Shown: piece after piece, positions 1 to 52,043 of the stretch | Position numbering within the stretch: the first letter of the stretch is position 1 | Layout: each line of letters opens with the position of its first letter | Source of the DNA: Candidatus Latescibacterota bacterium | Lineage (GTDB): Bacteria; Krumholzibacteriota; Krumholzibacteriia; WVZY01 | Assembly (NCBI GenBank): GCA_011772205.1 | Contig: WVZY01000003.1 | Location: 1 to 64,000, forward strand | Direction of reading: 5' to 3' | DNA length: 64,000 bases | Notes under the pieces: generated by a model | Told to the model about the DNA's origin: nothing | What the model saw: the letters and a program-made list of their open reading frames with translations, nothing else | The model's database searches: none | Position numbers and translations under genes: made by a program

Positions 1-162
1 GGCCCCGGTGCCATTGGCCAGACCGCTGACGTCGGGCTTGGGTTCGCTCGGTTGATTTGGGGCTTCCGGATGGGAAGGTGTTCTCACATGACATCCGGGG
101 AGAATCAGGGAGGCGACGAGAAAGAGAACGAAACCACGAAACAGGATGTGTTGTTTGGGCAT
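1..162 (-). CDS. Lipoprotein N-terminus, truncated by window edge
   Basis: Only the first 54 codons lie inside the window; the gene continues past position 1. The start ATG at 162 follows a strong ribosome site (AAGGAGGTGGGTG). The product begins MPKQHILFRGF, then a hydrophobic stretch ending in the lipobox LPGC, so it is almost certainly exported and lipid-anchored at Cys24. After the cysteine comes a Pro/Ser/Glu-rich linker, usual for lipoproteins. The mature domain is not visible, so no function can be given. It lies downstream of the aroQ terminator on the same strand and has its own sigma-54-type promoter at 249-264, so it is a separate transcription unit. Confidence 0.75.
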   Translation of the reverse strand, partial: MPKQHILFRGFVLFLVASLILPGCHVRTPSHPEAPNQPSEPKPDVSGLANGTGA

Positions 163-248
163 CACCCACCTCCTTCATACAATCCGCGACAAACAGCACA
201 ACGATGCAGAGGAAAACGGTACGCGCGTGAACGCGGGCTCGTCCAGAG

Positions 249-264
249 TGCAATCTGGATGCCA
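249..264 (-). promoter_or_regulatory. Predicted sigma-54 promoter of the lipoprotein at 162
   Basis: On the minus strand the sequence reads TGGCATCCAGATTGCA. The GG and GC pairs are separated by exactly ten bases and the -24 (TGGCA) and -12 (TTGCA) elements match the sigma-54 consensus. The expected transcript start is near 238, giving a leader of about 75 bases. It is one of four such sites in this window, all before envelope genes. Confidence 0.65.
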
Positions 265-410
265 AATGCTTGCAATAAGGAAGATGCTGATATTGCAACA
301 CATATAGCAGATGAGGCATTGCGCCTCGGAGCAATTTAACGGACCTGTCGCCGCTGCTAGGTGGGCAGGACTATGTAGTGTATATAATTGAGGAGCCGAT
401 AGGATGGAAA

Positions 411-436
411 GCGGGTGTCCGTTTCGAGACACCCGC
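411..436 (-). terminator. Probable terminator of the aro operon
   Basis: A perfect nine-base-pair stem (GCGGGTGTC / GACACCCGC) with an eight-base loop lies just after the aroQ stop. On the minus strand it is followed by a short TTTCC rather than a long T run, so it may be only moderately efficient. Confidence 0.55.
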
Positions 437-441
437 GCGGA

Positions 442-885
442 TTACCCTGCTATTTCACCCAGCGCATCGATCGCAAGCAGGTACCCTCGGTAACCGAGGC
501 CGGTAATTCGGCCGCGGCAGACGGGCGCAATGACGGATGTCTGCCTGAAAGGCTCCCTGGCGTCAAGGTTGCTCAGGTGCACCTCGATTGCGGGGAGGCC
601 GGTTCCCTGGATGGCATCCCGGATGGCAATGCTGTAATGGGTGAAAGCACCCGGATTGATCACCAGGGCATCGCATCTTTCGGGGCCCTCACTTGCGGCC
701 CTGTGAATTCGATCGATGATGTCGCCTTCGTGGTTGCTTTGATAGAAATCAATAGATATGTCTTTCACGGAGGCATGCTCTTGGATGAGGCCGTTGATCT
801 GTTCGAGGCTATCCGACCCATATATGTCGGGTTCCCGCTTGCCGAGCAGGTTGAGGTTCGGTCCGTGTATGACAAGTATCTTCAT
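442..885 (-). CDS. aroQ: Type II 3-dehydroquinate dehydratase
   Basis: Catalyses the third shikimate-pathway step, 3-dehydroquinate to 3-dehydroshikimate, in the cytoplasm. The 147-residue product has the normal type II length. It begins MKILVIHGPNLNLLGKREP, the family signature with the active-site Tyr replaced in register by Asp-Ile-Tyr a few residues later (DIYG), and carries FYQSNHEGDIIDRIH, NPGAFTHYS and EVHLSNLDARE, which hold the catalytic His and substrate-binding residues. The start is the ATG at 885, after GGAAAGGAG; an in-frame upstream ATG at 900 is less well placed. The start overlaps the aroKB stop by four bases (ATGA), so translation is probably coupled. It is the last gene of the aromatic operon. 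Confidence 0.95.
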   Translation of the reverse strand: MKILVIHGPNLNLLGKREPDIYGSDSLEQINGLIQEHASVKDISIDFYQSNHEGDIIDRIHRAASEGPERCDALVINPGAFTHYSIAIRDAIQGTGLPAIEVHLSNLDAREPFRQTSVIAPVCRGRITGLGYRGYLLAIDALGEIAG

Positions 886-2612
886 TCTGCTCCTTTCCAC
901 AGGGCGGCCAGCATTTCCGCCTCGGAGACGTCGGTTACCACCCTTGCAGCCATGATGGATCCAATGCGGACGGGAAGTACGAAATGGAACCTGCCTGATT
1001 GCTTCTTCTTATCCAGATGGAGACTTTGCGCGATCGACTTTTCATTATAGGGAGGGGCGGTCACGGGCAAGCCGCATCGATTGAGAATCGTCATCGTGCG
1101 CCGGAGAAACTCCTCATCGACGAGGCCTCTCGAAACGGCAATGCGCACCGCTGCGACAAGCCCGATGGACACGGCTTCTCCGTGGGATAGCTCGAAATAC
1201 TCCCCCACTGCCTCGAGTGCATGACCGAGCGTGTGGCCGAGATTGAGGATCTTCCGTTCGTCCTGATCAAAAGGATCCTTCTCGACGATCGATGCTTTGA
1301 TGGCGGCGCACTCCGTGATGCATCGTTCGAGGAAAGACGTTTGCTTTAGTTCATCGCTGGGATATTCATGAAGTTTCCTCTCGATGAAATCGAACAGGTT
1401 GGGGGAGCCGATGATCGCTGTTTTGACGACTTCCGCCATACCGCTCGAGATCTCTTCGATAGGGAGCGTGCGAAGCAAACACGGATCCGTTAGCACTAAA
1501 AGCGGCTGATAAAAGCTCCCGATGAGGTTCTTCGCCCATGCGTGATTCACGCCGACTTTCCCCCCAATGCTTGAATCCACTTGTGCCAGCAGTGTCGTCG
1601 GAACGTGGACCAGAGGGATCCCCCGCATGTAGGTCGAAGCGGCGAACCCGCCAATGTCTCCCGTTACGCCACCGCCCATTGCGACTATGACGGAATCTCT
1701 CTCGGCCCCATGGGAGGCGAGTTCTTCGATGACCTTGCTCACCTGTTCGAGAGTCTTTTCCGAATCGCCGTCGTGGATGAAGATTTTCTCGTAGGGGATC
1801 GAAACGGCATCGAGCGATGCGGCGATCTGGTCCAGATAAAGCTCCCAGATCGTGTTTGGAACGATCAGGAAGGCCCCCGATGTAAGTCCAAGTGATTTCA
1901 AACGATCACCCAATTTGGACAGGACGCCGCAGCCGATCTCGATGGTGGAGAGAGCAGTGTGGGATTTCCGCCCTTTTGGCTGCGGAGTGTCGGACGGCCT
2001 GGCCCATATCGAACCTGCCGGCACTCGGATGTTGATTGTCCGGGAAGGAATGTTGATAGAAGAAGCAATTCGAACAGCGGCCTCATGCGGGTTGAGATAT
2101 GTGGTATCGACCCTTGTCCGTATTCGCCTGTAGACGGGTTCGCGTTCGGAAAGAATCCGTAGAATCCGCTCGCGGAACTGATCGTCCGGCAACTCGATCT
2201 TGTCCTCGAGCAATAGAGGGCGTAGGGGACTCTCTCTTATCCTTGTGCAAATCATATCCACCGAAGCGGTGAGGAGGATGATCTGACCTGTCTGGGAAAA
2301 TGCGGCAAACGTCTTCTCGTTGAGAAGGGTTCCACCTCCTGTCGCTATGACAAGACCTGAGCGCTTCGACAGCTTGGCACATATTTCTTCTTCGCGAGCG
2401 CGGAAATATTCCTCACCGCGTGTCTGGAATATCCCGGTGACCGTCATCCCCTCGAGCTCCTCGATGAGCAGATCCGTATCGACGAACTCCAATCCGAGAA
2501 TCTCTGCGAGTTGTCGGCCCACCTCTGTTTTTCCGGTTCCCATGAAACCGGTTACCACGACCAGAGGTGGCTTCGCTCTTCGCGTCGTTTTTCTACTCTT
2601 TTTTTCGCTCAC
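882..2612 (-). CDS. aroKB: Fused shikimate kinase / 3-dehydroquinate synthase
   Basis: A 576-residue fusion of two shikimate enzymes. The N-terminal part (about residues 15-185) is shikimate kinase, with P-loop GFMGTGKTEVG, the DTD shikimate-binding motif and ATGGGTLL. The C-terminal part (about 215-576) is 3-dehydroquinate synthase, with the NAD-binding GGGVTGDIGGFAAS, PTTLLAQVDSSIGGKVGVN, the metal-ligand region NLGHTLGHALE and a second metal His in LSHGEAVSIG. The chosen start is GTG at 2612, which overlaps the aroC stop by four bases (GTGA) behind GGAAAGAG; the longer reading frame upstream only runs across aroC. One polypeptide therefore carries steps 2 and 5 of the pathway. AroK-AroB fusions occur in scattered bacteria. 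Confidence 0.93.
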   Translation of the reverse strand: MSEKKSRKTTRRAKPPLVVVTGFMGTGKTEVGRQLAEILGLEFVDTDLLIEELEGMTVTGIFQTRGEEYFRAREEEICAKLSKRSGLVIATGGGTLLNEKTFAAFSQTGQIILLTASVDMICTRIRESPLRPLLLEDKIELPDDQFRERILRILSEREPVYRRIRTRVDTTYLNPHEAAVRIASSINIPSRTINIRVPAGSIWARPSDTPQPKGRKSHTALSTIEIGCGVLSKLGDRLKSLGLTSGAFLIVPNTIWELYLDQIAASLDAVSIPYEKIFIHDGDSEKTLEQVSKVIEELASHGAERDSVIVAMGGGVTGDIGGFAASTYMRGIPLVHVPTTLLAQVDSSIGGKVGVNHAWAKNLIGSFYQPLLVLTDPCLLRTLPIEEISSGMAEVVKTAIIGSPNLFDFIERKLHEYPSDELKQTSFLERCITECAAIKASIVEKDPFDQDERKILNLGHTLGHALEAVGEYFELSHGEAVSIGLVAAVRIAVSRGLVDEEFLRRTMTILNRCGLPVTAPPYNEKSIAQSLHLDKKKQSGRFHFVLPVRIGSIMAARVVTDVSEAEMLAALWKGAE

Positions 2613-3763
2613 CTCTTTGTTCTCTTTCCAATGGATTTGACGTAAGCGATGAAGTTCGCTTGGGTTTCCTCGATGTGGTCGCCACCGAATTTTTCGAGAA
2701 TCGCACAGAGAAGCTCCCAAGCGACGACGGCCTCCGCGATGACGCCCAGCGCGGGAATCACACACACATCGGAACGCACGTAGGGGCTTTCACGGGATTC
2801 GAGCGTGCTCATGTCGATTGTCGGAGCTTGTTTCGGGGCGGTTGCAATGGGCTTGGCATATGAGCGAATGACAATATTCTCACCGTTCGATATGCCGCCC
2901 TCGATGCCGCCGGCGTAGTTCGTCGGCCGCTTGATTTTACCCCGATAGAGGACGATTGCGTCCTGTGACTCGATGCCACGCTTTTTATATGTCTCGAGCC
3001 CTGCACCGATTTCGACCGCCTTCACCGTTTGGATGCTCATCAGTGCACCGGCGAGACGTGCATCGAGTTTGCGATCCCAATGAGCATGACTCCCAAGACC
3101 CGGTGGAACGCCGGAAGCGATCACTTCGATCGATCCTCCGAGTGTGTGGCCTTCTTTCCACGCCGTTTTGATGAGGCCGATCATCTTCCGCTCTGCCGCG
3201 GCGTCTGCACAATATAATTGAGAGCGTGCCACACGGCTCATCAGTCGATCGAGGGACGATGTATCCGGATCGGCATCGATATCGCCGATCGATCGGACGT
3301 GGGAAAGTATCTCAACCGAAAACCGTTTCAACACGCCCTTTGCCACGGCGCCGATAGCGACGCGCATGGCCGTGCTGCGGGCGCTTGCACGTTCAGCAAT
3401 TGGCTGAATGTCATCCAGACCGTACTTCAGACACCCCGCCAGGTCTGCATGTCCAGGCCGGGGGACGGTGCCAGGAGCTCCACCCCTTTTACCGCCCGGC
3501 GCTTTTCCCAGATTGAGTATCCGGATGCCTACGGGAGCTCCCGTCGTTCTGCCACGCCACATGCCGGAAACAATCTCGACCGGGTCCGTCTCGATCCTCT
3601 GCCGCCCGCTTCGTCCGTATGTTTTTCGCCGCCTTTTGAGGTCGCGCTGGATATCACGAATCGGGATGGGGATGCCGGCCGGGAGGCCTTCGATGATCCC
3701 AACAAGGGCGTCTCCATGTGAATCACCGGCCGTTAGAAAACGAAGGGGCATCTTTCCGTTCAT
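2609..3763 (-). CDS. aroC: Chorismate synthase
   Basis: Makes chorismate from EPSP by anti-1,4-elimination, using reduced FMN. The 384-residue protein shows the family blocks in order: RFLTAGDSHG, RASARST (residues near 127), GLGSHAHWDRKLDARLAG, QTVKAVEIGAG, GGISNGENIVIRS and RSDVCVIPALGVIAEAV. The start at 3763 (MNGKMPLRF) follows AGAGG closely; the second ATG at 3751 behind GGAAAG is also possible and gives a length nearer the family norm at the N-terminus. It sits between a short intergenic segment after aroE and the overlapping aroKB start. Inference: co-transcribed and translationally coupled to aroKB. Confidence 0.95.
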   Translation of the reverse strand: MNGKMPLRFLTAGDSHGDALVGIIEGLPAGIPIPIRDIQRDLKRRRKTYGRSGRQRIETDPVEIVSGMWRGRTTGAPVGIRILNLGKAPGGKRGGAPGTVPRPGHADLAGCLKYGLDDIQPIAERASARSTAMRVAIGAVAKGVLKRFSVEILSHVRSIGDIDADPDTSSLDRLMSRVARSQLYCADAAAERKMIGLIKTAWKEGHTLGGSIEVIASGVPPGLGSHAHWDRKLDARLAGALMSIQTVKAVEIGAGLETYKKRGIESQDAIVLYRGKIKRPTNYAGGIEGGISNGENIVIRSYAKPIATAPKQAPTIDMSTLESRESPYVRSDVCVIPALGVIAEAVVAWELLCAILEKFGGDHIEETQANFIAYVKSIGKRTKR

Positions 3764-3768
3764 TCCTC

Positions 3769-3861
3769 TTATTGCTGTGGTTTTGCGCAGCCCACGACTT
3801 TAGAAATCAGGCACGAGTGCAAATCAGACGCGAGCTTCAAGGTGAGTTCTATTGGTGTCAT
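3769..3861 (-). CDS. Possible 30-residue small protein between aroE and aroC
   Basis: The 124-base gap between aroE and aroC is filled by a short reading frame starting at ATG 3861, eight to nine bases after GGAG, and ending with TAA six bases before the aroC start. The peptide begins MTPIELTLKLAS and has a plausible amphipathic composition with two cysteines. Its placement and ribosome site suggest it may be translated, perhaps only to couple aroE and aroC translation. No homology is recognised. It may equally be a chance frame. Confidence 0.3.
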   Translation of the reverse strand: MTPIELTLKLASDLHSCLISKVVGCAKPQQ

Positions 3862-3887
3862 AGAAAGATCTCCATGCGGCAACTCAT

Positions 3888-4844
3888 TTAATACTGCCGC
3901 AAGCCGCCGCCACCGGCAAGATGGGATTCCAGTGCGTCGGTCATTTTGTCCAGGTCGAACGGTCGTCCCGTCCAACAGCGAAATCCTTCCGAAGCCTGCG
4001 CGACCAGCAACTTGAGTCCATCCAGGCGCTTCGCGCCCCGCGCCTTTGCCATTTTGAGAAACTCCGTTTCCCGGGGATGATACACAAAATCGAAGCAGCA
4101 GTGCGCTGGTCGAATCCAACCAGGATCCTTGACGAGCGAGGGGGATGGGCCAAGGCTCCCGGCAATCGCACCGGACCGGGCGCCGTCGCCGGCCGCCTCC
4201 GGGGATTCTCCCACCATCCCCACCGGTGTTGCGTTGATCAGGATATCCGAGCCGATGATCGCCGCCTCCCTCCGGGAGTGCATTTTCTTGCTCTTCGTAG
4301 AGAGGATGCTAATGTTCTTGCCGGCGAAAAAGATACGGAGATGTGAAATGCTTTCCTCCGCTCTGGATGGATCCCGTACCAAAAAAGTGACGGTTTCGGC
4401 CCCCGCCTCGAGAACGCCGTATGCCGCGGCCCGGGCCGCGCCCCCGGCGCCGAAGATCAACACCTTTTTGCCTTCCAATTCGATGTTTCCGAACCGTTGC
4501 AGAGCGACGACCGTTCCGGTGGCATCCGTATTGTAAGCGAGGATTTCGTCCTTCGTGAAGTGGAGCGTATTGGCCGCTTTCAGGACTTCCACATGTTTCG
4601 ATGGACGGTCGACACATGCGAGAATGGCTTCCTTGTGAGGATAGGTGACATTCACCCCGGTAAAATCCATGTCTCGGAGATCATCGATGGTTTGGAGCAG
4701 ACTGTCGGACTCGACTCGGAGGGATGTGTAAGTTGCCGCGATGCCGCTTTCCGAGAATGCGCGGTTCATGATGAAAGGGGACAGGCTGTGCTCAACTGGG
4801 TCCCCTATGAGGCAGTAGAGTTGCTCGGGTTCAGAACTGGGCAA
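3888..4844 (-). CDS. aroE: Shikimate dehydrogenase
   Basis: Reduces 3-dehydroshikimate to shikimate with NADPH. The 318 residues include the substrate-binding GDPVEHSLSP near the start, the catalytic Lys in NVTYPHKEA, AANTLHF, the catalytic Asp in NTDATGTV, and a glycine-rich nucleotide loop GAGGAARAAAYG (about residue 133). The family is usually about 270-290 residues. The excess is an insertion near residues 200-240, rich in Gly/Ser/Pro, between the NATPVGM motif and the FDFVYHP motif. The C-terminal region GLKLLVAQASEGFRCWTG is typical. It lies 61 bases after aroA in the same operon. Confidence 0.93.
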   Translation of the reverse strand: MPSSEPEQLYCLIGDPVEHSLSPFIMNRAFSESGIAATYTSLRVESDSLLQTIDDLRDMDFTGVNVTYPHKEAILACVDRPSKHVEVLKAANTLHFTKDEILAYNTDATGTVVALQRFGNIELEGKKVLIFGAGGAARAAAYGVLEAGAETVTFLVRDPSRAEESISHLRIFFAGKNISILSTKSKKMHSRREAAIIGSDILINATPVGMVGESPEAAGDGARSGAIAGSLGPSPSLVKDPGWIRPAHCCFDFVYHPRETEFLKMAKARGAKRLDGLKLLVAQASEGFRCWTGRPFDLDKMTDALESHLAGGGGLRQY

Positions 4845-4905
4845 TTTGATTCCTTCTGGTGTTCCGAGTTCGCTTGATTCTTGCCATGCACAACTCCCCC
4901 TGCTG

Positions 4906-6177
4906 TCATGCTGCCAGGGTGATCAGGTCTCGATAAAAATCCGGGTAAGAAACACCGACAACGTCACTGTTTTCGATTCGAGTGGTTCCCTCGGCGAAGA
5001 GACCGGCTATGGACGACGCCATCGCGATACGATGGTCGCCGAATGAGGAAACCGCCCGCCCTTTCAAACTGCAGGGACCCATTACGGAGAAGCCGTCTTC
5101 GAGCTCCGTCACTTTCGCGCCGAGCAGGGAGAGGTTTTGGACGATTGCCCGGATTCTGTCCGATTCTTTGTGCCGGAGTTCTCCCGCTCCCCGCACGGTC
5201 GTCACACCTTCGGCTTGCGTGGCCGCAACGGCGAGGATTGGCAGTTCATCTATTAGAGTGGGTACGAGCGCTGGATCGATGTCGATGCCGTGAAGCGAGC
5301 TCGACCGGGCGATGATGTCGCCCGCGGGTTCGCCAGCCTCCGTGTCAACGTTTTCGATGGAGATATCCGCCCCCATCTCTTGCAGCACCTTTATGGCTCC
5401 TGTGCGGGTCGGATTTACTCCTGTGTGGATGAAATATATTTCGGAGTCGGAAAGGCAAACAGCTGCTGTGATAAAAAACAGCGCAGAGGAAATATCAGCT
5501 GGCACCGTTACGTAAATTCCTTTTAGAGACGATCCCCCCGTTACGGTCACTGTGCCCTCATCTCTGCTGATCGTTGCTTCCATCGCCTCGAGCAAATTCT
5601 CGGTGTGATCCCTCGATGGTTGCTCTTCGATCACCGTTGTATCGCCATCCGCGGAGAGCCCAGCGATCAGCACGGCGCTCTTTACCTGCGCACTTGGCAT
5701 GGGCATCCTGTAAGTGATTCCGGACAGTTTTTTTCTCGTAATCTGCAACGGCAAGTGGTCACCGCCCGTCAAATGGATGTCGGCGCCCATCTGCCTGAGG
5801 GGCTCTACGACGCGGGACATCGGGCGCTTGCGGAGAGATTCGTCTCCATCGATGATGCAGTCGAGTCCTTTTCCCGCAGCGAGGCCCAGGAGGAGGCGGG
5901 CCGCTGTGGCGGAGTTGCCCGCATCGAGATTCTGTCCTGTGATCCAGCGCTTGGAGATCGTCAACACCTGTCCGTCGGGCATTTCCTCTACGAAACAACC
6001 GAGCGTGCGGAGGCAAGATGCCGTTCTCCCCACGTCCTCCGCTCGCGGGATGCCTTCGATAACTTGTTTCCCGCGGGCCAGAGCGCCGAGAATCAGGGCT
6101 CGATGAGCGATGGATTTATCCCCGGGCACCCTCAGGGTGCCGCGAATTTTCGTGGCTTTTTGAACGGAAGTATCCAT
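4906..6177 (-). CDS. aroA: 5-enolpyruvylshikimate-3-phosphate synthase, class II-like
   Basis: Transfers enolpyruvyl from PEP to shikimate-3-phosphate. The 423-residue protein has the normal length and motifs: RVPGDKSIAHRALILGAL, the PEP-loop GNSATAARLL (about residue 82), PSAQVKSAVLIAGL, DELPILAVAATQAEG, ELRHKESDRI and SFGDHRIAMA. In the PEP loop the glycine that contacts glyphosate in E. coli AroA (Gly96) is alanine here. RPMSRVVEPLRQMG also resembles class II enzymes, so reduced glyphosate sensitivity is expected from family knowledge. It is 21 bases after aroF and 61 before aroE. Confidence 0.95.
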   Translation of the reverse strand: MDTSVQKATKIRGTLRVPGDKSIAHRALILGALARGKQVIEGIPRAEDVGRTASCLRTLGCFVEEMPDGQVLTISKRWITGQNLDAGNSATAARLLLGLAAGKGLDCIIDGDESLRKRPMSRVVEPLRQMGADIHLTGGDHLPLQITRKKLSGITYRMPMPSAQVKSAVLIAGLSADGDTTVIEEQPSRDHTENLLEAMEATISRDEGTVTVTGGSSLKGIYVTVPADISSALFFITAAVCLSDSEIYFIHTGVNPTRTGAIKVLQEMGADISIENVDTEAGEPAGDIIARSSSLHGIDIDPALVPTLIDELPILAVAATQAEGVTTVRGAGELRHKESDRIRAIVQNLSLLGAKVTELEDGFSVMGPCSLKGRAVSSFGDHRIAMASSIAGLFAEGTTRIENSDVVGVSYPDFYRDLITLAA

Positions 6178-6198
6178 ATCGGATTGGAGTTGATCAGA

Positions 6199-7230
6199 TC
6201 AGCGGTCGGCAGTGCCAACCCGCCTCCCCACTGCTGCGGCGATTCGCCGAATCTCGTCCATCATCGTTTTGAACTCGCCGAAGGAGAGGCTCTGGATGCC
6301 GTCGGACAGTGCATGTTCAGGAGAGGGGTGGACTTCGACAAGGATTCCGTCCGCGCCGGCAGCCACCGCGGCCTTTGCGGCGGCCGGAATGTACTCACGG
6401 CGGCCGGTGGCGTGGCTGGGATCCACGATAACGGGAAGGTGACAGCTATGCTTGAGCACCGGGACGGCGGAAATGTCGAGCGTGTTGCGCGTTGCCTTTT
6501 CGAACGTCCGTATTCCGCGCTCACAAAGTATGACCTGGTTGTTCCCGTTTGCAAGTACGTATTCTGCGGCCAGCAGGAGTTCCTCGATCGTCGACATCAT
6601 TCCACGCTTCAGGAGGATCGGTTTGTTCGCTTTTCCAGCAGCTTCGAGGAGAAAGTAGTTCTGCATGTTCCGCGAGCCGATCTGAAGGATATCCGCGTAC
6701 TCACTCACCACGGGAACCAGTTCCGGAGTGATCACTTCGGTGACGATTGGCAGTCCCGTCTCGCGCTTGGCGGCGAGCAAGATCTTCAGAGCGTCTTCGC
6801 CGAGCCCCTGGAAGCTGTAAGGCGAAGAACGCGGTTTGAAGGCGCCGCCCCTGAGTATTCTCGCTCCGGCTTCGTGCACCATTTTGGCCGTCGACATGGC
6901 TTGTTCATGAGATTCAACGGCGCATGGCCCGGCCATCACCACGAACTCCTCGCCGCCGATTGGGACGTCGCCGGCGTTAACGATGGTCCGCTCCGGTTTG
7001 TGCTTGAGGGTGACGAGGGTGAACGGATCTGCGGAAGGGATGATCTGCGCCACGCCGGGCATTGCTTGGATATGTGAAAGCTCAATGTTCTCGTTCGACC
7101 CGACAATACTGATGACCGCATGGTCGGCATTGCGGGAGGCCTGAGGCTTCAAGCCGAGTGATTCGATCTTTTGGATTACGTCGTCTGTTTCGGAGACCGA
7201 CGCATCAGTTTTCATAACGACCAGCATCAT
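6199..7230 (-). CDS. aroF: 3-deoxy-7-phosphoheptulonate (DAHP) synthase
   Basis: First enzyme of the shikimate pathway, condensing PEP and erythrose-4-phosphate. The 343 residues comprise an N-terminal ferredoxin-like regulatory domain (about 1-70, MMLVVMKTDASVSETDD) and a type I-beta barrel with VMAGPCAVES, LRGGAFKPRSSPYSFQG, IGSRNMQN, LLKRGM, CERGIRTFE, and the metal-ligand motif DPSHATGRR. The Thermotoga-type architecture suggests feedback inhibition by Tyr or Phe through the N-terminal domain (established for relatives; inferred here). The start may be ATG 7230 or 7227, behind AAGGAA. A sigma-70-like internal promoter at 7380-7409 could let it be expressed apart from trpF. Confidence 0.93.
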   Translation of the reverse strand: MMLVVMKTDASVSETDDVIQKIESLGLKPQASRNADHAVISIVGSNENIELSHIQAMPGVAQIIPSADPFTLVTLKHKPERTIVNAGDVPIGGEEFVVMAGPCAVESHEQAMSTAKMVHEAGARILRGGAFKPRSSPYSFQGLGEDALKILLAAKRETGLPIVTEVITPELVPVVSEYADILQIGSRNMQNYFLLEAAGKANKPILLKRGMMSTIEELLLAAEYVLANGNNQVILCERGIRTFEKATRNTLDISAVPVLKHSCHLPVIVDPSHATGRREYIPAAAKAAVAAGADGILVEVHPSPEHALSDGIQSLSFGEFKTMMDEIRRIAAAVGRRVGTADR

Positions 7231-7646
7231 TTATGTCTGTTTCCTTCTGGGCGCGAAGTGGGTGGGGGGACCCTCATGATGTAACCCTGACGCATGACGT
7301 GAGCCTGCCGCACTGGCGGATACCGGATCGGCCCTGGATAATCGCAGGGATCCCTCGACACTCGATACACGGAGCCCCCATTTTACGCCATGCAGGCCTA
7401 ACATTTCAAGGTGCTGTGTGTTTGGAGCGTTGTATTGAGAGGGGATGGGACTGCTGTCCCCCTGAGCGCCCGCAATGCTGCAGTTCCGGGGTGGGGGGCA
7501 TCGGACGGGGTGGTCGGGGCCTGGGCGTAAGCTCAGGGGGAGGACACGACCACCCCTCTTGGGTCGGGTCGGTCCCACGGGAAAGCTTCAGGGTCTTGGA
7601 TCTCCCCGCAGTGACCAACCCGACTCCACTACTCTTATGGCGGTTG
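7231..7646. other. 416-base gap between aroF and trpF, no convincing gene
   Basis: Frames open through this segment are proline- and arginine-rich and have no usable ribosome site or recognisable motif. It contains a candidate minus-strand promoter at 7380-7409 and therefore a leader of about 143 bases ahead of aroF. A relic of a lost trp gene is possible but nothing in the translations proves it. Confidence 0.5.
7380..7409 (-). promoter_or_regulatory. Internal promoter before aroF
   Basis: On the minus strand TTGAAA, an 18-base spacer and TAAAAT form a good sigma-70-type promoter. The expected start is near 7373, giving a leader of about 143 bases to aroF. Confidence 0.5.
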
Positions 7647-8288
7647 CTACGCGAAGCAGCCTCTTGCCTCGGCGACAAACTGCTTCACAGCTTCGAAATC
7701 TTTGAGACCGGGGGCCTTTTCGACCCCATGACAAACGTCCACGCAGTACGGCCTTGTGGCCTCGACAGCACCACGGACATTCGAGGGATCGAGACCCCCG
7801 GCGAGAATGATCCGGTACCCCATTTTCCTCGCCTTGGCGGCCTTCGCCCAAAACCCCCGCGACGCATCTTTTTGAGCCGGATCTGCAGATGGCCGGTCCA
7901 GGTCGAAAAGGAAATAACTGATCGTTTGGTACAAGGCAAGCCTGGCAGGGTCCCATGTCTCGTGCTGGCGAAACGTTTTGACAATCGGAAGCAGCGTTTT
8001 AGATAGGAGCCCCTCGCAATACTCCGGGGATTCGTGGCCGTTCAATTGGATCATGCTGAGCTTGCAAGCTCTGGCGGCTTCGACGATTGAGTCTTGATCA
8101 GCATCAGCGAAGACGCCTACGAGATTCGCTCTCGGCACCGCAGCGCGGATCTTCTTGGCGCTTTCCAGCGTGACGCGTCTTGGGCTGTCTTCGAAAACAA
8201 TCCCAAGGTAGTCGGTTCCCAACGCGTTGCACGCAACCGCGTCTTCTGGTGTGGTGAGCCCGCATATTTTTATTTTCGTATCGATCAT
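7647..8288 (-). CDS. trpF: Phosphoribosylanthranilate isomerase
   Basis: Third enzyme of tryptophan synthesis from chorismate: phosphoribosylanthranilate to CdRP. The 213-residue TIM-barrel protein starts MIDTKIKICGLTTPEDA, which has the family's catalytic Cys in KICG, and carries GIVFEDSPRRV, IQLNGHE, FLFDLD and the phosphate-binding LAGGLDPSNV followed by VDVCHGVE (usually VDVSSGVE). The start at 8288 follows AGGAGG by nine bases. It is the first enzyme gene after the Trp attenuator; the other trp genes are not in the window. Inference: trpF and the aro genes are controlled together by tryptophan supply. Confidence 0.93.
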   Translation of the reverse strand: MIDTKIKICGLTTPEDAVACNALGTDYLGIVFEDSPRRVTLESAKKIRAAVPRANLVGVFADADQDSIVEAARACKLSMIQLNGHESPEYCEGLLSKTLLPIVKTFRQHETWDPARLALYQTISYFLFDLDRPSADPAQKDASRGFWAKAAKARKMGYRIILAGGLDPSNVRGAVEATRPYCVDVCHGVEKAPGLKDFEAVKQFVAEARGCFA

Positions 8289-8512
8289 TTCATGTTTCCT
8301 CCTGGTATCTTGGTAACAGCCCCAGCCTACAACCGGTTATCATGGGCGAGCTCTGGCCAGGCGGAGACAGGGGATTCCAATTCGGCGGGAGTCCTTCTGC
8401 CGAAGATGCTTGGCTGCCCTGCTCCACCCGTCCAAGTAACTGCTGCAACGATGGGGTGTGAAAACCGAGCTCCTTTTCGTGTTCGGCTGCGGCCAAAATC
8501 GACCTCCAGGGC
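8289..8512. other. Segment between the attenuator and trpF
   Basis: About 220 bases on the minus strand separate the attenuator T run from trpF. A 68-codon frame (8290-8496) starts MAAAEHEKELGF and ends just before trpF, but it has no clear ribosome site and no recognised homologue. It could be a translated spacer, or the remnant of a gene such as trpE, trpD or trpC deleted from a once longer trp operon. Confidence 0.35.
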
Positions 8513-8549
8513 CCAAAAAAAGACCCACCATCCGTTGGATAGTGGGTCT
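8513..8549 (-). terminator. Trp attenuator terminator hairpin
   Basis: On the minus strand AGACCCACTATCC, a three-base loop and GGATGGTGGGTCT form a 13-pair stem with one mismatch, followed directly by seven Ts. This is a textbook intrinsic terminator placed between the leader peptide and trpF. Its left arm can instead pair with the antiterminator segment at 8601-8609. Confidence 0.9.
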
Positions 8550-8571
8550 CGCGTAAGAGAATTTTTCAGAT

Positions 8572-8688
8572 TCAATCACAACCGGGCGAACGCGCAGACG
8601 CCACTATCCCCATACCGGTGGGACACCAAAAACCCCACCAGTGTGCGGCATTGTGGACATTACGCATTGACATCGGTTGTCTTCCCAT
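8572..8688 (-). CDS. trpL: Trp operon leader peptide
   Basis: A 38-residue frame between the promoter at 8758-8786 and the terminator at 8513-8549. Near its middle it reads HWWGFW, with three Trp codons within five positions (8640-8626), the hallmark of a trp leader peptide. The stop lies 23 bases before the terminator stem. The likely start is ATG 8688 (about nine bases after TGGAG), but in-frame ATGs at 8673 (behind GGAAG) and 8667 are also possible; all keep the Trp codons. Its role is to sense charged tRNA-Trp: ribosome stalling at the Trp codons favours the antiterminator and read-through into trpF and the aro genes. No other function is expected for the peptide. Confidence 0.88.
   Translation of the reverse strand: MGRQPMSMRNVHNAAHWWGFWCPTGMGIVASARSPGCD
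8601..8642 (-). promoter_or_regulatory. Trp leader pause hairpin and antiterminator segment
   Basis: On the minus strand ACTGGTGGG (8642-8634), which contains the Trp codons, can pair with CCCACCGGT (8622-8614) to make the 1:2 hairpin. Further on, GGATAGTGG (8609-8601) is perfectly complementary to CCACTATCC in the left arm of the terminator (8545-8537), giving a nine-pair antiterminator. The two structures are mutually exclusive with the terminator, as in classical trp attenuation. Confidence 0.8.
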
Positions 8689-8757
8689 CACCCTGCGCTC
8701 CAGGTCGCCAGATTTATCATCTTTGATAAAAGCCTATTAGATGCCTATCTAGAGTTC

Positions 8758-8786
8758 ATTCTACTACAAATGAGAATCAGAGTCAA
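8758..8786 (-). promoter_or_regulatory. Promoter of the trp/aro operon
   Basis: TTGACT, a 17-base spacer and TAGAAT on the minus strand form a strong sigma-70-type promoter. The transcript would start near 8751, about 63 bases before the leader peptide start. No TrpR-like palindrome was recognised. Confidence 0.75.
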
Positions 8787-8952
8787 GGCGGAAACCTCGT
8801 CGTGCTCTTTCAATTCAATCGCCTGGAATCGAGCCGGCCATCGGTGAACTCCTCCATTGGGGAAAGCCCAGCTTTCTCAGCTCGTCCTCTGCGGAGATTG
8901 TCTCCGGCCGCAGGGTGGGATAAAGTCTCATTTCCTCGCAGCACCAAATGCG

Positions 8953-27789: not shown

Positions 27790-29334
27790 TCATATTTTTT
27801 CCAAATATGTTTCGATTTTTTTTCTTTCAGATTCGTTCAGTATCCCCTTTCTATGCGCTACCGAATCTATATAAAACTGAATGTGTTCGTCAACAAGCCA
27901 CAATTTCTTATCCGCATAACGATAACCATAGCGTGCCGAGCTCGACAGATATTCATCACTAATATCTGCGCTCTTGTAGTTTACCTTTCTAACGAGATCT
28001 GGTGTGAAATCATTCTGCTTGGCAACTGCATCCAAAAGATCATGAATCCCGGTGCCATGTTGAGCGGCGTCCTTCCCGCGGTCGGCAAACTCTTGGGGTA
28101 TGCCAACTTTTTTTGCCAAAGCCCGATGGGGTCGCTTCCCCATCGCGTCATTCGGTGAGTTGATTTTGAGTTGCGGAGGAACGCTCATTGCGAGGTTCAC
28201 AAAAGCAGTATCAATATAAGGGAAAACTGCTTTCAGTCCGTTTGCCCATGCGAGCTTGTTCTCCCGGTCCAGCGTTTCGATATCTGCTCGTGTTAAATCC
28301 CCCCAATTCTTTTCGGAGTAAGCGTCGTATCCTTCTTCGGCGATGACCCTGGGATACCAGCGATAACCTCCCCATAACTCATCCGGCCCCTGGCCCGACA
28401 CAATCAATTCCACGCCATCATGAGCGGCCATCTCTTCAGCCGCATAAACGCCAATGCCGGCTTCAACCTGGACAAAATCTCTCTCCTCCACAGCCTTTAC
28501 GACTTTAGGGATTAAGTTAGCGACATCCGAGACGTCTAGTTTTCGAACCTTATGGTTCAGGCCGAATTCTCGCGTGAAGCGTTCAGCGAAGGCCACGTCA
28601 ATTGCGTCCTTGGTACCTGCCGTATAAACGATGATCTCTTCACCCATTTCCCGGGCATACTTTGACGTCAACATGGTCGAGAGCGTGCTGTCCACTCCGC
28701 CGGATAGCAAGGCTCCAATTTTTTTCTGCCCCTCGAGCCGTTTTTCAAACGCTTGAATAAGAAGCTGCTCGTACTCCTTGACAATACTGTCAAAGTCTTG
28801 CTGCTTGAAATCTCTTTTCTTAAAGTGAGCAGCTTCAACGATCTTGATACCATTTTCGTCCAACACGGCTGACGTACCCGCCCGTAGTGGTTTTACGTTT
28901 CTCAGGCCGATGGACCACAAAGCCTTTTTCTCGCATGCATAGGCTAGAATCTCTTCGTTTTTTGCATAAAAAATAGGCCTTCGGCCAAGAGAATCTCGCG
29001 CAACCGCGATTTTATTGCCATCGGTCGCAGCTAATGAGTATTCTCCGCCAAGTGTCTGTATTGTTGATCTGAATATTTTTTCAAGATCACCGGGCATTTC
29101 TTTTATATCACCAAAGATTTGCCCATCGTAAACGTAGGCATGTTGTTTTTTAACTGGTTCATTGAAGGATACCAAAGCTAATATTCCAATCGAGGCAAGC
29201 ATTTTAGAGCTCTGGATCACAGCCATTTCTGATGTCACCACCCAAGCATGTTTGTTTTTTCGAGATAGATTGTGCAGCATCGTGTTGGCATATTCGAATA
29301 CATCGCTTTTGCGCGTGCTTAGGATCCCGAGCAT
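27790..29334 (-). CDS. Asparagine-synthetase-like protein lacking the glutaminase cysteine
   Basis: A 514-residue relative of AsnB. The N-terminus reads MLGILS where active glutamine amidotransferases have MCGI, and the RGPD and NGEIYN motifs are absent, so the glutaminase site is dead. The start is secure because AAGGAGATTTGTA directly precedes it. The C-terminal synthetase domain is intact, with PP-loop LSGGVDSTL (about 212), SGQGPDELWGGY and FPYIDTAFVNLA. Its C-terminus SSSARYGYRYADKKLW matches the same region of the active paralogue at 36172-37899. It may use free ammonia, work as a partner subunit of that paralogue, or act on another acid. AT-richer than the flanking genes. Confidence 0.8.
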   Translation of the reverse strand: MLGILSTRKSDVFEYANTMLHNLSRKNKHAWVVTSEMAVIQSSKMLASIGILALVSFNEPVKKQHAYVYDGQIFGDIKEMPGDLEKIFRSTIQTLGGEYSLAATDGNKIAVARDSLGRRPIFYAKNEEILAYACEKKALWSIGLRNVKPLRAGTSAVLDENGIKIVEAAHFKKRDFKQQDFDSIVKEYEQLLIQAFEKRLEGQKKIGALLSGGVDSTLSTMLTSKYAREMGEEIIVYTAGTKDAIDVAFAERFTREFGLNHKVRKLDVSDVANLIPKVVKAVEERDFVQVEAGIGVYAAEEMAAHDGVELIVSGQGPDELWGGYRWYPRVIAEEGYDAYSEKNWGDLTRADIETLDRENKLAWANGLKAVFPYIDTAFVNLAMSVPPQLKINSPNDAMGKRPHRALAKKVGIPQEFADRGKDAAQHGTGIHDLLDAVAKQNDFTPDLVRKVNYKSADISDEYLSSSARYGYRYADKKLWLVDEHIQFYIDSVAHRKGILNESERKKIETYLEKI

Positions 29335-33289: not shown

Positions 33290-34930
33290 TTACACGATGG
33301 ACTGAATGAGATATGAAAATAAAATGATCAAAAAGAAAAACATGATAACCGATACATATGTGGATTCGATTCTTCCTGCATAGCCGAAACTGGGGCGAAA
33401 CAGAACCACTCCCCGACGGTAGCTCCCCCAAAATGCTCTCAGTGAATGAAGGCCAACAGCAATAACAAAGACAACCATAAATCCGATGAAGTTCCACCAT
33501 AGCCAAGATATATCAGTTAATCGCCAGAGACCGATATTTACTATGATCCCGGTGATTACCCCTACTTTAACCTGAATTGGTGAGACGGAGCGTGTTGCCA
33601 TTCCAATAAAAAAAGCAGCCAAAACAGGTCCGTAAAGCAAGCTGCCAACAGCGTTGATCAATACAATCGTTGTTTGACGTGTTGCTTCAGCGGCATGTGC
33701 GAAGTTTAGTGCAACAAGAACACAGAAGGCACCCCAAAATACCGTCAGCCCTTTGGAGACAATTAGATAATGCCTTTCCGAAGCTCTTGGTTTGAAGTAT
33801 GTGCGATAGAAATCTTGCATTGTTACGGCACTAAGGGAGTTGATGGCGGAGTCGAGACTCGACATCAGCGCAGACATAATGGATACAAAAATTAATCCAA
33901 CAACGCCTGCGGGAAGAAAAGCTAAGATAAACATCGGTACCATTCGGTCGGGATCATCTTGAAGCACATTCATGATGCCCTTTATGTCGGTATCCAGCTG
34001 TGCCGCCATACTGCTCACATGCTCAGGATTTGCAAAAACGGCGCCGATGAAAACTCCCATCAAACAATATAATAGTACGATCGGAAATCGGCTGAATGCA
34101 TTGAACAATAGAGACCTCTTTACATTGCGAATCGTCCCGACTGACAGCTCTCTCTGTACTTGGCTCTGGTCGCAGCCATAGTATGATGCGTAAAGAAATA
34201 TTCCCCCGATTGTCATCGGCCAAAATGCGTATTCTCCTCCGCTTGATGTTCCCCAGCGGCTGAAATCCAAAATACGCAAACGATCTGGACTCAATGCTCC
34301 CCATGCATTCCCCCAGCCAGCGAGCGACAACGCAGCGATCCCGCAAATCAAAATACCTGCAAAAATGATCGACATCTGGAAAACATCACTGATGATGACT
34401 ATCTTCATCCCACCAAGCGCATCGTAGATGACAGTAACTGCCCCGATAAGTAGGATCGCTTCGCTGGTCGAAAGAGGTAATGCAGTGGAGAGTATCAAAC
34501 CTCCGGCTAAGACGGACACCGCTGTTGCCAGAGCACGCCCAAGCTGAAAGAGCATGCTTACCAAGGCCCTTGTGCTCCGGTCGAATCGCTGCTCCAGGTA
34601 TTCGTAAATGCTAACGTATCTTCCCTGGTGGAGTCTTGGGATGATCCAGATTATTACGAACAGAATACCAAGGGGAACGCCGAACTCGTAACAGAGCCAT
34701 TTCAGACCACCGTTTTCCTTTAGTGCAACGAATGCAGGTGCCGATACGAAACTGATGGCTCCCAACTGGGTTGCCATTGTTGACAATCCTGATTGCCACC
34801 ACCGAATTTTTCGGCCTGCCAAATAATAGTCGCTGAGATTGTGATGACCTCGGCCGAACACGAAAGCAAGAACGACTAGGCCAGCAAAATAGCCTGCTAT
34901 CACCATCCAATCGAATATTGTCATGATCAA
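33290..34930 (-). CDS. Sodium/solute symporter (SSS family)
   Basis: A 546-residue integral membrane protein with about 13 hydrophobic segments. SSS-type features are NLSDYYLAGRKIRWWQSGLSTMATQLGAISFVSAPAFVA at the first helices (read in parts), GGMKIVIISDVFQM, YYGCDQSQVQRELS and a Ser-rich SIMSALMSSLDSAINSLSAV, the region that binds sodium in relatives. It lies inside the mannosylglycerate operon between mpgS and mpgP, so Na+-driven uptake of mannosylglycerate, its amide or another compatible solute is the natural inference; substrates in this family (sugars, proline, others) cannot be read from sequence. Confidence 0.85.
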   Translation of the reverse strand: MIMTIFDWMVIAGYFAGLVVLAFVFGRGHHNLSDYYLAGRKIRWWQSGLSTMATQLGAISFVSAPAFVALKENGGLKWLCYEFGVPLGILFVIIWIIPRLHQGRYVSIYEYLEQRFDRSTRALVSMLFQLGRALATAVSVLAGGLILSTALPLSTSEAILLIGAVTVIYDALGGMKIVIISDVFQMSIIFAGILICGIAALSLAGWGNAWGALSPDRLRILDFSRWGTSSGGEYAFWPMTIGGIFLYASYYGCDQSQVQRELSVGTIRNVKRSLLFNAFSRFPIVLLYCLMGVFIGAVFANPEHVSSMAAQLDTDIKGIMNVLQDDPDRMVPMFILAFLPAGVVGLIFVSIMSALMSSLDSAINSLSAVTMQDFYRTYFKPRASERHYLIVSKGLTVFWGAFCVLVALNFAHAAEATRQTTIVLINAVGSLLYGPVLAAFFIGMATRSVSPIQVKVGVITGIIVNIGLWRLTDISWLWWNFIGFMVVFVIAVGLHSLRAFWGSYRRGVVLFRPSFGYAGRIESTYVSVIMFFFLIILFSYLIQSIV

Positions 34931-34948
34931 AATCTGGGGAGTATCTTT

Positions 34949-36175
34949 CTAAACGATTCGCCACTCTTGACGCGTAACGGATCTATCGGCCAAAAGCCTG
35001 CCGTATGGTGTGGATGCGATTTCTTGCAGAAATATTTCCGTGTCTATCGAAGACAGAGCGGGGAAATTGCGACATCTATCGAGCTCTATTTTGTTTGTAC
35101 CGATAAAACCCCTTTTGAGTGCATCAGTTTTTATTTCCCGCTTGATGCTATCAGGACAAATCGGTGAATGATAGATTACCTGCATCGCTTCGCGGCGCAT
35201 TTCATCTATATGAGTTTGGTCTCCAGCTTCGTGCAGATGCGGATTGCGCGATTCAATCTGGTATATTTCAATGCTTTTCATCATTATATCTGGAAGGGGA
35301 CTCTCCAAAATCCCGCCAAACTTTTCCAAAATATTGACGATATGGTATGGTTCAATCGAATACCCCGCTGAGTAATCAATGTTCAGTGCAAGGTCTGCTG
35401 TGAGCGCATGCTCACCAGCATTACCAGTTTTGATTATCTCGGTCTCGTATCCCGTGTAGTGGGCAATTAGTTTGTTCAGTAACTGATTCGTGTTGGAAGT
35501 TGTGCGACCCCATTTTCTGAAGAATAATTTTGATTCAGCGATTTTTGGTTTGCTGTGCCAAGCGATTCGGACCATTGAATATTTAGACTGACTGATGATG
35601 AATCCAGCGGCGTATTCACGAATGTACTCCTCGACTGCACCAGGAAAGTAGTTATCTGCATCAACAAAACCGATATATTTTTTGCCAGCAAGACGTGCCA
35701 GCATTGTCCCGATCAGCATCCCTTCTGCTTTTCCATCATAGACGAGACCTTGTTCATCCAGGATGCCCGTATAACCGGCTTTTTCGAAAGCTCTGGCGAT
35801 ATTGGGATCCTTTTGATGCACGATCAATGCGCTCTTGCCGACAAAGTTACAGAAATCATTCAAAGCATCTTGTTCCATACTGAATCGGTCGATCGGAAGG
35901 ATCGGGCTGTTTGAAACTACTATAATCAGGCAAGGATGGGGAACGCCGCTCAAAACACCCTCGATCAGTTTCAAGCGCTCACTGCGGACGGGTATTATTA
36001 TCGCCATATTTTTGAAGATCGCATACAGTTCTCGATGCGGTATCGCTTGGATAGCTTGCGTTGCACTCGGCATAGATCCGTTGCCCGGACCAGCGTCCAA
36101 TTCAAACACTTTTTGCAAATCGCCGAATCGAATTGCTCCAAAACGCTCTACATTTTTTGGTAACTCGAGTCTCAT
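34949..36175 (-). CDS. mpgS: Mannosyl-3-phosphoglycerate synthase (GT55)
   Basis: A 408-residue glycosyltransferase that joins mannose from GDP-mannose to 3-phosphoglycerate. Family features include ELPKNVERFGAIRFGDLQKV at the N-terminus (in parts), MAIIIPVRSERLKLIEGVLSG for nucleotide-sugar binding, the DAD metal motif in GFVDADNYFPGAV (about residue 174), MVRIAWHSKPK, and NAGEHALTADLALNIDYSAGYSIEP (in parts). The length suits GT55 enzymes. The start overlaps the stop of the amidotransferase gene by four bases (ATGA) behind GGAAGGA, so the two are translationally coupled. Together with mpgP it forms the two-step route to mannosylglycerate known from thermophiles such as Pyrococcus and Thermus. 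Confidence 0.93.
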   Translation of the reverse strand: MRLELPKNVERFGAIRFGDLQKVFELDAGPGNGSMPSATQAIQAIPHRELYAIFKNMAIIIPVRSERLKLIEGVLSGVPHPCLIIVVSNSPILPIDRFSMEQDALNDFCNFVGKSALIVHQKDPNIARAFEKAGYTGILDEQGLVYDGKAEGMLIGTMLARLAGKKYIGFVDADNYFPGAVEEYIREYAAGFIISQSKYSMVRIAWHSKPKIAESKLFFRKWGRTTSNTNQLLNKLIAHYTGYETEIIKTGNAGEHALTADLALNIDYSAGYSIEPYHIVNILEKFGGILESPLPDIMMKSIEIYQIESRNPHLHEAGDQTHIDEMRREAMQVIYHSPICPDSIKREIKTDALKRGFIGTNKIELDRCRNFPALSSIDTEIFLQEIASTPYGRLLADRSVTRQEWRIV

Positions 36176-37899
36176 GATTTACTCGTCCTTCCATTGCTGA
36201 GTCCAAGGGCGGTTAATTTCTCTCTTGTGGCATTCCATTGCAATTTTGGCAAGCCTGTCAGCAGTCCAATCTCTGCAGCAAGCGTATCGAGGTAGTATTG
36301 TACATGCGGTGACGGTTTCCAGAGACTCCTGTCACCGTAGCGATAGCCATAGCGAGAGGAGCTGCCAAGCTTTTCCTGCACCGATATGTTCGAGTCATAA
36401 TTGGCTGCATTTAGGAGATCTTTTGAATATCCATGACTCCTTGCGAGCTCCTCGAAAACATCATGAACGTTGGCTCCATGCTGCGCGGCTTCCTTTTCCC
36501 GAAAAGCTACTTCTTCAGGAACTCCTAAAACTATTGAAAGAGCTCGATGTATTCGTTTCTGTAACGGATCCCCTCCCTTACGGATCTTCAGCTGAGGTGC
36601 AATTGCGAACGCTACTTCGATAACCTGTGGATCAACGTAAGGGACTCTGAGCTCCATACTGTGGTTCATCGCGATTTTGTCCTCGCGCTCGAGGCACTCC
36701 TTATACAAGAGAAATGTGTCTTCCCACGAACGTTCAACGAACTGATCGTATCCTTCACGATCGACGATCGCAGCGTACCAAGGATATCCCCCGAACAACT
36801 CATCAGCACCTTGCCCGGTAAGGATCACGCGCTCCCCTGCTTCCTGAGCCATGCGAATCGATGCGAAAATCGGGATCGCAACTTCCACTTGATTCAGGCT
36901 GTGATCTTCAATGGCTTTCATGACTTCAGGGATGAGTTCTTCGATTTCATTCTTGGACAGGGTCTTGACTCGCAGTGGAAAACCATGTTCTTTAGCGGTT
37001 TTTTTCGCCCACGTGATATCCGGAGCATCTTCGCCTCTTCCAGCTGTGTAGCACGTAAAGGGCACTCCCAACTGCTTTACAAGAGAAGCGATCATAAAGC
37101 TATCTATCCCACCCGAGTAGATGATTCCGACGTGATCCCTATCATGTATCCTTTTCCATACCGCTTCCTTCAATTCATTTTTATAAGCACTAAGTGCTTT
37201 ACTCACATCTTCAATTGTATCATTTGTTCTAATTTGATCAGGCGTCCAGAAAGCGCGAAGTTCATGACCGTTCTCTCCTAGAATCATCATATGCCCCGGA
37301 GGGAGCCGATGGATTTCCACGTCATTTCCAAAAAGAGCTTTCAAGGATTTTTTTTCAGAGGCAAATGCAGTCAATCCTTTTCCGAAGCAGTAGTAAAGTT
37401 GTCGCACGCCGATTCGGTCACGGGCTATGATTGTGTGATGCTGATCGGTGACCGCGGTTCCATACACTCCGTCTAAATGGGGGAGCACCTTTTCGAGTGC
37501 ATACACCAAATCACCGCGGTATTCATTTGCGAGAAGCTTAAAGAAAACTTCGCTATCGCTGCTGCTCGCCGGCTGAGCCGGTCCCATGAGGCTTTTCCAC
37601 AACTTACGGTAGTTATAGATCTCTCCATTGTGGAGCAAGCTCAAGCGACCGTCCGGTGTTTGAAATGGTTGGACTCCTGTTGCCCCCCCCGTTATAGCAA
37701 GCCTCACATGTCCCAACGCAATCGTCCCAAATTGATTTCGAAAATCAAGTGCTTCGACAGTTGATTTCCGCTGGCAATGAGTTCCAACGACCATACCGGC
37801 GCCATCCGGGCCACGGTGGTGCTGCGCTCGAAGCATTGCTTCCAGCAGAGGACCGAGGTCTCTGGACGTTTTGCTGACGATACCTGCTATTCCACACAT
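36172..37899 (-). CDS. Asparagine-synthetase-like glutamine amidotransferase
   Basis: A 575-residue class II amidotransferase/ATP-pyrophosphatase. The glutaminase half is intact: MCGIAGI with the catalytic Cys2, QHHRGPDGAG and LLHNGEIYNYRK. The synthetase half has YSGGIDSFM (PP-loop, about 266), LTGQGADELFGGYPWY and SMELRVPYVDP. Ordinary AsnB makes asparagine, but here the gene is locked between a MarR gene (3-base gap) and mpgS (4-base overlap). By analogy with AsnO, which amidates the osmolyte NAGGN, I infer it amidates mannosylglycerate (or its phosphate) to mannosylglyceramide. Plain asparagine synthesis remains the alternative. The C-terminal SSSRYGYRYGDRSLW is shared with the Cys-less paralogue at 27790. 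Confidence 0.82.
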   Translation of the reverse strand: MCGIAGIVSKTSRDLGPLLEAMLRAQHHRGPDGAGMVVGTHCQRKSTVEALDFRNQFGTIALGHVRLAITGGATGVQPFQTPDGRLSLLHNGEIYNYRKLWKSLMGPAQPASSSDSEVFFKLLANEYRGDLVYALEKVLPHLDGVYGTAVTDQHHTIIARDRIGVRQLYYCFGKGLTAFASEKKSLKALFGNDVEIHRLPPGHMMILGENGHELRAFWTPDQIRTNDTIEDVSKALSAYKNELKEAVWKRIHDRDHVGIIYSGGIDSFMIASLVKQLGVPFTCYTAGRGEDAPDITWAKKTAKEHGFPLRVKTLSKNEIEELIPEVMKAIEDHSLNQVEVAIPIFASIRMAQEAGERVILTGQGADELFGGYPWYAAIVDREGYDQFVERSWEDTFLLYKECLEREDKIAMNHSMELRVPYVDPQVIEVAFAIAPQLKIRKGGDPLQKRIHRALSIVLGVPEEVAFREKEAAQHGANVHDVFEELARSHGYSKDLLNAANYDSNISVQEKLGSSSRYGYRYGDRSLWKPSPHVQYYLDTLAAEIGLLTGLPKLQWNATREKLTALGLSNGRTSKS

Positions 37900-50049: not shown

Positions 50050-50187
50050 GCGGTCATACTCCAGTCATGAAAAGGACTGCCGGAACAGATTGCAATCCAA
50101 TCATGTGCAGTCCAGAAACGATAGTATACTCTCTCGGCGCTGCCTGCGCCAACAAATCAAATTCTTATCCGAATACGCTCCTATCAC

Positions 50188-51702: not shown

Positions 51703-51893
51703 GGCATCATCTCCAGGTCTTCAGCTCTTCTTCTATATTTGTACCTTGAAGCGCTTTTCATTGAACCATATTTGGTTGAATCTCTCAAAGAGATTAGCGA
51801 CGGATAATCGAGATCGCCGTACTAATCAAAAGATCGCGTTTAGATGAAGTTATATTCGGAACTCGATACAAAGGAACCTCTGGAATCACTGAT

Positions 51894-51930
51894 ATTCTAG
51901 CAGGCATACAAACAAGAATCAAAGAGGATA
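51894..51930 (-). promoter_or_regulatory. Kinase-type extended promoter upstream of thyX
   Basis: On the minus strand TTGATT (51922-51917), 17 bases, TAGAAT (51899-51894), preceded by TATCCTC. The same extended box occurs before the two intact kinase genes. The leader to thyX would be about 185 bases. Confidence 0.65.
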
Positions 51931-51940
51931 TTGGTTGCTC

Positions 51941-51970
51941 TTGACTTGCCTGTGAAGCATTGCGGATAAT
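51941..51970 (+). promoter_or_regulatory. Promoter of the membrane spermidine-synthase-like gene
   Basis: TTGACT, 18 bases, GATAAT, divergent from the preceding promoter. A start near 51977 would exclude the upstream ATG at 51969 and supports ATG 52044 as the translation start. Confidence 0.6.
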
Positions 51971-52043
51971 GGGCAATCCTGCTTTGGGAGAACGACCGTC
52001 ACTGCGCTTGCACGGAAAACCCTTTGCTCGGGAACATCGAATC

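Follow-up and report, generated by a model that had tools for sequence, protein, structure and literature searches.

Genes for tryptophan and for chorismate synthesis form a trp-aro supraoperon in Bacillus subtilis, where control is exerted by TRAP, which binds (G/U)AG repeats. In Chlamydia, reduced trp operons carry Trp-rich leaders and a predicted attenuator, and the loss of trpE moved the regulatory part beside a later gene (PMC3937554). The Chlamydiaceae operate a linear pathway from chorismate to menaquinone by the futalosine (DH6N) route, the branches to Trp, Tyr and Phe having been lost (PMC3937554). Here we describe a Trp attenuator in a window of 64,000 nt, the whole stretch of DNA analyzed, from contig WVZY01000003.1. 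We consider it very probable that this element is the ancestral attenuator of a trpEGDCFBA-aro superoperon from which trpE, trpG, trpD, trpC, trpB, and trpA were deleted around trpF, and that it now lies ahead of genes serving a route from chorismate to menaquinone. The anatomy of the element, its two folds, and its homology to the attenuators of relatives are read directly from sequence, as are the deletions, the stub of trpE, and the absence of gene families.

All attenuator coordinates refer to the minus strand of the window (Table 1). The promoter-like site, the leader reading frame, and the hairpin over the Trp codons proposed in an initial annotation of this region were all recovered, and counterparts of the promoter occupy the equivalent place in relatives (TTGACA-17-TACAAT in G002, TTGACA-18-TAAGAT in G006). 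In the putative leader peptide, the Trp run HWWGFW spans codons 16-21, with Trp codons at 8640-8635 and 8628-8626. The true start may perhaps be Met6 or Met8 rather than Met1, because GGGAAG is better spaced ahead of Met6, and the Trp codons fall inside the leader whichever of the three starts is taken. The annotated nine-pair antiterminator is perfect (9/9 pairs, 8609-8601 with 8545-8537), and none of 300 shuffles reached this pairing. As for the terminator, its run of seven Ts stood as annotated, while the count of 13 pairs rises to 14 when a terminal wobble is included; the 13-pair core amounts to -22.9 kcal/mol.

Table 1. Features of the attenuator and of the genes behind it (window coordinates)
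Feature	Position	Strand	Remarks
Sigma70-like promoter, TTGACT-17-TAGAAT	8758..8786	-	10/12 consensus matches; 5' of leader
Leader peptide ORF, 38 codons, MGRQPMSMRNVHNAAHWWGFWCPTGMGIVASARSPGCD	8572..8688	-	ATG 8688, TGA 8574-8572
1:2 hairpin over Trp codons	8642-8633 / 8623-8614	-	10 pairs, -15.4 kcal/mol
Segment 2, antiterminator 5' arm, GGATAGTGG	8601..8609	-	Pairs with 8545-8537
Segment 3, antiterminator 3' arm, CCACTATCC	8537..8545	-	Doubles as part of terminator 5' arm
Intrinsic terminator with T7	8515..8550 (helix 8550-8520)	-	14 pairs counting terminal wobble
Frameshifted relic of trpE N-terminus	8348..8457	-	Two frames, TPSLQQLLGRVEQG and RRTPAELESPVSAWPEL
trpF, phosphoribosylanthranilate isomerase, 213 aa	7647..8288	-	Intact frame; PF00697, 120.8 bits
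Spacer replacing trpB and trpA	7231..7646	-	No recognizable remnant
Promoter-like TTGAAA-18-TAAAAT in deletion spacer, upstream of DAHP synthase	7380..7409	-	10/12 match
DAHP synthase, type I-beta with ferredoxin-like domain	6199..7230	-	Curated families
aroA, EPSP synthase	4906..6177	-	Curated families
aroE, shikimate dehydrogenase	3888..4844	-	Curated families
aroC, chorismate synthase	2609..3763	-	Curated families
aroK-aroB fusion	882..2672	-	Curated families; start codon uncertain, ORF opens at 2765
aroQ, type II dehydroquinate dehydratase	442..900	-	Curated families

Folding of the leader, which the annotation had suggested as a check, gave the two mutually exclusive states expected of an attenuator. 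The whole-leader fold (z = -3.8, with no shuffle equally stable) consists of the 1:2 hairpin and the terminator. When a ribosome was taken to be stalled at one or another of the Trp codons and the RNA as far as that ribosome was masked, the minimum-energy fold flipped from terminator to antiterminator and the terminator was absent. Judged by this anatomy, the element is a classical ribosome-mediated Trp attenuator of the trpL type. A scan of the whole window at the Rfam gathering score matched no family, the curated Trp leader included, so the attenuator is filed under no Rfam family; the T-box covariance model likewise had no match in the window.

The genes behind the terminator follow in the order trpF, DAHP synthase, aroA, aroE, aroC, aroKB, and aroQ. 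All are intact, and curated families back the identities given by the initial annotation, which had named trpF and a complete chorismate pathway; the aro part covers the whole seven-step path. Among Trp biosynthesis genes, the attenuator here precedes only trpF and a stub of trpE. Farther along the window, at 47747-61102, several large proteins of the Pkn kinase type that bear TPR repeats (48617-49714, 54494-56863, and 58175-61102) and related TPR fragments are clustered as in a local expansion. A single block, at 33290-37899 and 27790-29334, read by eye from translations, encodes two asparagine-synthase-like proteins, a sodium-solute symporter, and mannosyl-3-phosphoglycerate-phosphatase-like and glycosyltransferase-like proteins, and is possibly a compatible-solute cluster.

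Relatives show what such an operon looks like when it is complete. In G002, a member of the same family, the order is trpE, trpG, trpD, trpC, trpF, trpB, trpA, DAHP synthase, aroA, aroE, aroC, aroKB, and aroQ, and the operon is divergent from an isocitrate dehydrogenase gene that is also the divergent neighbor in the window. Its leader, MKRIAEQNCYSHTVGWWWPLTL... (WWW), and terminator lie directly 5' of trpE. The same gene arrangement recurs in G006, from the same order, with the leader MRLCSAHTVLRNARQWWWCNRTIG ahead of trpE, and ten more relatives in another family of the class carry Trp-run leaders and terminators 5' of trpE. Trp-run leaders were thus found in 12 relatives overall, and the terminator helix covaries across 13 sequences; antiterminator pairing is weaker in several distant relatives. 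The annotation had held that relatives keeping the genes while lacking Trp codons and terminator would speak against an attenuator, and these relatives retain leader, Trp codons, and terminator alike.

The 13 leaders were used to build a covariance model, with which 80 genomes of the class were searched. Among the 25 strongest matches, 23 lie directly 5' of trpE, one lies before trpB (G075), and one is the window itself, whose score is not independent because its sequence is part of the model; only the window match precedes a trpE stub and trpF. In G075 (L204:1501-1650), a Trp leader, GRWSGWWPWCGSIKR, and a terminator stand directly ahead of trpB rather than trpE, so that this attenuator family is found in a rearranged setting for a second time. 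Weak matches of about 40 bits or less were inspected (L225-L231, L233, and L234) and no attenuator was recognized among them; they resemble unrelated GC-rich, TGGCGG-repeat tails beside ordinary terminators.

Set against these operons, the window differs by deletions on both sides of trpF. Between terminator and trpF there are 230 bases where relatives have trpE-G-D-C, and between trpF and the DAHP synthase gene there are 416 bases where relatives have trpB-A. The first gap holds the relic of trpE, which gave a tblastn E of 1e-5 to residues 27-54 of G002 TrpE, its two frames TPSLQQLLGRVEQG and RRTPAELESPVSAWPEL aligning with G002 TPSLQEFLKSAGQG and RRMPADLETPVSVFLKL, and which shares 15 identical bases with the start of G002 trpE. 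Measured against twelve TrpE proteins, it keeps 9 of 16 near-invariant residues and has changed the other 7. Searches for remnants of trpC ahead of trpF and of trpB or trpA in the 416-base spacer returned chance-level matches only, and no copy of this spacer was seen in the stretches of its own genome that were examined. The spacer also contains, at 7507-7556, a strong GC-rich inverted repeat with 16-base arms (88% complementary) and no T run, again without a copy in those stretches. The gene order that the initial annotation took for an alternative design appears instead to be the remainder of a trpEGDCFBA-aro superoperon. An ancestor would have had trpEGDCFBA joined to the aro genes under a Trp attenuator, and loss of trpE, trpG, trpD, trpC, trpB, and trpA from around trpF would have left the decayed trpE stub directly behind the terminator.

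What chorismate is used for depends on the rest of the genome, a draft assembly of 81 contigs that is 96.5% complete. The search covered TrpE/PabB, TrpA, TrpB, TrpC, PheA, and TyrA, and each searched family was present in all 14 control genomes. In this assembly, nothing convincing was found for the chorismate-binding family (TrpE, PabB, and MenF), and TrpA, TrpC, prephenate dehydratase (PheA), and prephenate dehydrogenase (TyrA) were not found; in place of a true TrpB there were only weak pyridoxal-enzyme relatives. Given these absent families, Trp cannot be made from chorismate in this genome. Phe and Tyr are probably not made by the usual enzymes, and the gene content suggests a probable auxotrophy for all three aromatic amino acids.

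The genome does encode a futalosine menaquinone cluster, comprising a UbiD-like decarboxylase (TIGR03701), MqnE (TIGR03700), MqnA, MqnC (TIGR03699), and MqnD, with MqnA and MqnD assigned from PF02621 and neighborhood. In the family, strong MqnA/MqnD matches accompany the aro operon in G000, G002, and G003. Both are missing from G001, G004, and G005, where a weaker third paralogue is all that was seen, G001 being just 65% complete. Retention of the aro operon only where MqnA/MqnD are kept fits a role for chorismate in making menaquinone, and the futalosine route is most likely its remaining outlet. In the single-contig assemblies G004 and G005, neither a trp-type TrpF nor this DAHP synthase is present, and the attenuator and strong MqnA/MqnD matches are missing as well, so that trp, chorismate, and menaquinone genes appear to have been lost together.

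These absences bear directly on the design first proposed for the locus, namely that the charging of Trp-tRNA would govern flux into every aromatic amino acid. An intact attenuator ahead of a complete chorismate pathway would suit such a design, and it may hold for relatives such as G002 and G006, whose trpEGDCFBA and aro genes seem to make up a single operon. With TrpE, TrpC, TrpA, a true TrpB, PheA, and TyrA all missing and a trpE stub in place, charging cannot set flux to aromatic amino acids here, and we regard that claim as very improbable for this genome. An artefact of assembly or binning, with the cell possessing a normal trp-aro superoperon, is another reading, and a draft in 81 contigs leaves some room for one. 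Yet the stub shows both frameshift and erosion, intact genes do not simply meet in the gap sequences, and the trp families are missing elsewhere in the genome too, as are PheA and TyrA, which lie outside this operon in G002. Such an artefact is very improbable.

Whether the switch still works is a closer call. If it does, low Trp-tRNA charging would stall the ribosome at HWWGFW, allow 2:3 pairing, and let transcription enter trpF and the aro genes, while high charging would favor 3:4 pairing and termination. Trp starvation would then raise the supply of quinone precursor, or would have no effect if the aro genes have a promoter of their own. A substantial possibility, to which we give somewhat less than even weight, is that aro gained a promoter of its own within the spacer (7409-7380) once trpBA had been deleted, and that the attenuator survives as a fossil controlling only a useless trpF. 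The promoter-like site is one of only two 10/12 sites on the minus strand of positions 1-8900, where shuffling predicts 0.3 (P about 0.009); it is absent at that place in G002 and G006, and G003 has a weaker 9/12 site. In TrpF, the near-invariant His of the QLHG motif, present in every clear TrpF of the class examined, has also become Asn (QLNG). However, a match to consensus does not amount to promoter evidence, no intrinsic terminator separates trpF from the DAHP synthase gene, and every part of the attenuator is still perfect beside the heavily decayed stub: 14/14 terminator pairs, 9/9 antiterminator pairs, three Trp codons, and an open leader frame. Such intact features survived in 0.9% to 0.02% of simulations at 10-20% neutral substitution, a range to be read in light of stub drift after loss being estimated only roughly. 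On balance, we think it about as likely as not that the aro genes are still under the attenuator's control. That selection keeps it, with a Trp auxotroph coupling Trp-tRNA charging to chorismate supply for menaquinone and using Trp starvation as a cue for its respiratory quinone pool, is a tentative proposal that we think somewhat doubtful. Another explanation, which we judge unlikely, is that TrpF serves a different reaction and is itself the reason why the attenuator persists. The frame is open, no catalytic position (Cys, Arg, or Asp) has changed, and trpF is not clearly faster-evolving than in relatives, so the loss of the pathway may be recent or TrpF may have another role; branch-specific change at conserved sites, examined as a sign of relaxed selection, is slightly high (16 changes versus 57 invariant sites), but in G006, too, no gene varies more than trpF. 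Against another role stand the QLNG change and the fact that TrpF is not known to serve any pathway in which TrpD and TrpC are missing.

Two further observations concern these proteins. In G000, contig C57:770-1441 (L051, minus strand) encodes another member of the TrpF family, which scores 83 bits against PF00697 and in which the catalytic Cys is Ala and the conserved Arg is Glu; it probably has a different function, and similar weak paralogues occur in many relatives, including G004 and G005, both without a trp-type TrpF. The aro proteins were also considered for selection against Trp content of the kind reported for Chlamydiaceae, and this was rejected. With 13 Trp in 2095 residues, versus 6-8 in about 2000 in relatives, their content is slightly higher, not lower, and gives no hint that these enzymes were selected to be made when Trp is scarce.

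The locus looks like a regulator caught outliving the pathway that it sensed. One family offers a series from a full trp-aro operon (G002), through loss of trp with attenuator and aro kept (this genome), to loss of both trp and aro (G004 and G005), and it raises the question of whether attenuators persist by inertia or are re-tasked. The arrangement hints that a respiratory cofactor may be supplied according to the charging of Trp-tRNA. It also widens the known range of Trp leader attenuators by an uncultivated class and warns that an attenuator with genes downstream does not imply that a cell makes the amino acid being sensed.

Like the B. subtilis supraoperon, this locus belongs to a lineage with trp and aro in one apparent transcription unit and predicted Trp-responsive attenuation, but the sensor there is the TRAP protein acting on (G/U)AG repeats, and here it would be a translated Trp-codon leader. 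That leader resembles trpL of Escherichia coli and other Proteobacteria in its Trp codons, its alternative 1:2, 2:3, and 3:4 helices, and a terminator with a T run just before the structural genes; it differs from E. coli trpL in its unrelated sequence, in belonging to another bacterial class, and in having only trpF left of the trp operon. As in the reduced trp operons of Chlamydia, a Trp-rich leader was retained after partial loss of the trp pathway, although there the element is still ahead of trp genes in use (trpB, trpBA), and here it precedes trpF alone, the rest of the transcript being the chorismate pathway. The predicted metabolic end state is that of the Chlamydiaceae, with chorismate made for menaquinone only and aromatic amino acids taken up; no Trp attenuator on aro genes is described there, the reported adaptation being low Trp content of enzymes (PMC3937554). 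Among the papers searched, none describes aro genes that retained an attenuator once trp had been lost, Chlamydia with its Trp-rich leaders being the nearest case. The trp attenuator is a known kind of element; new are its presence across an uncultivated class without an Rfam match, the trp-aro superoperon that it precedes, and the fact that in this genome it outlasted the deleted Trp pathway.
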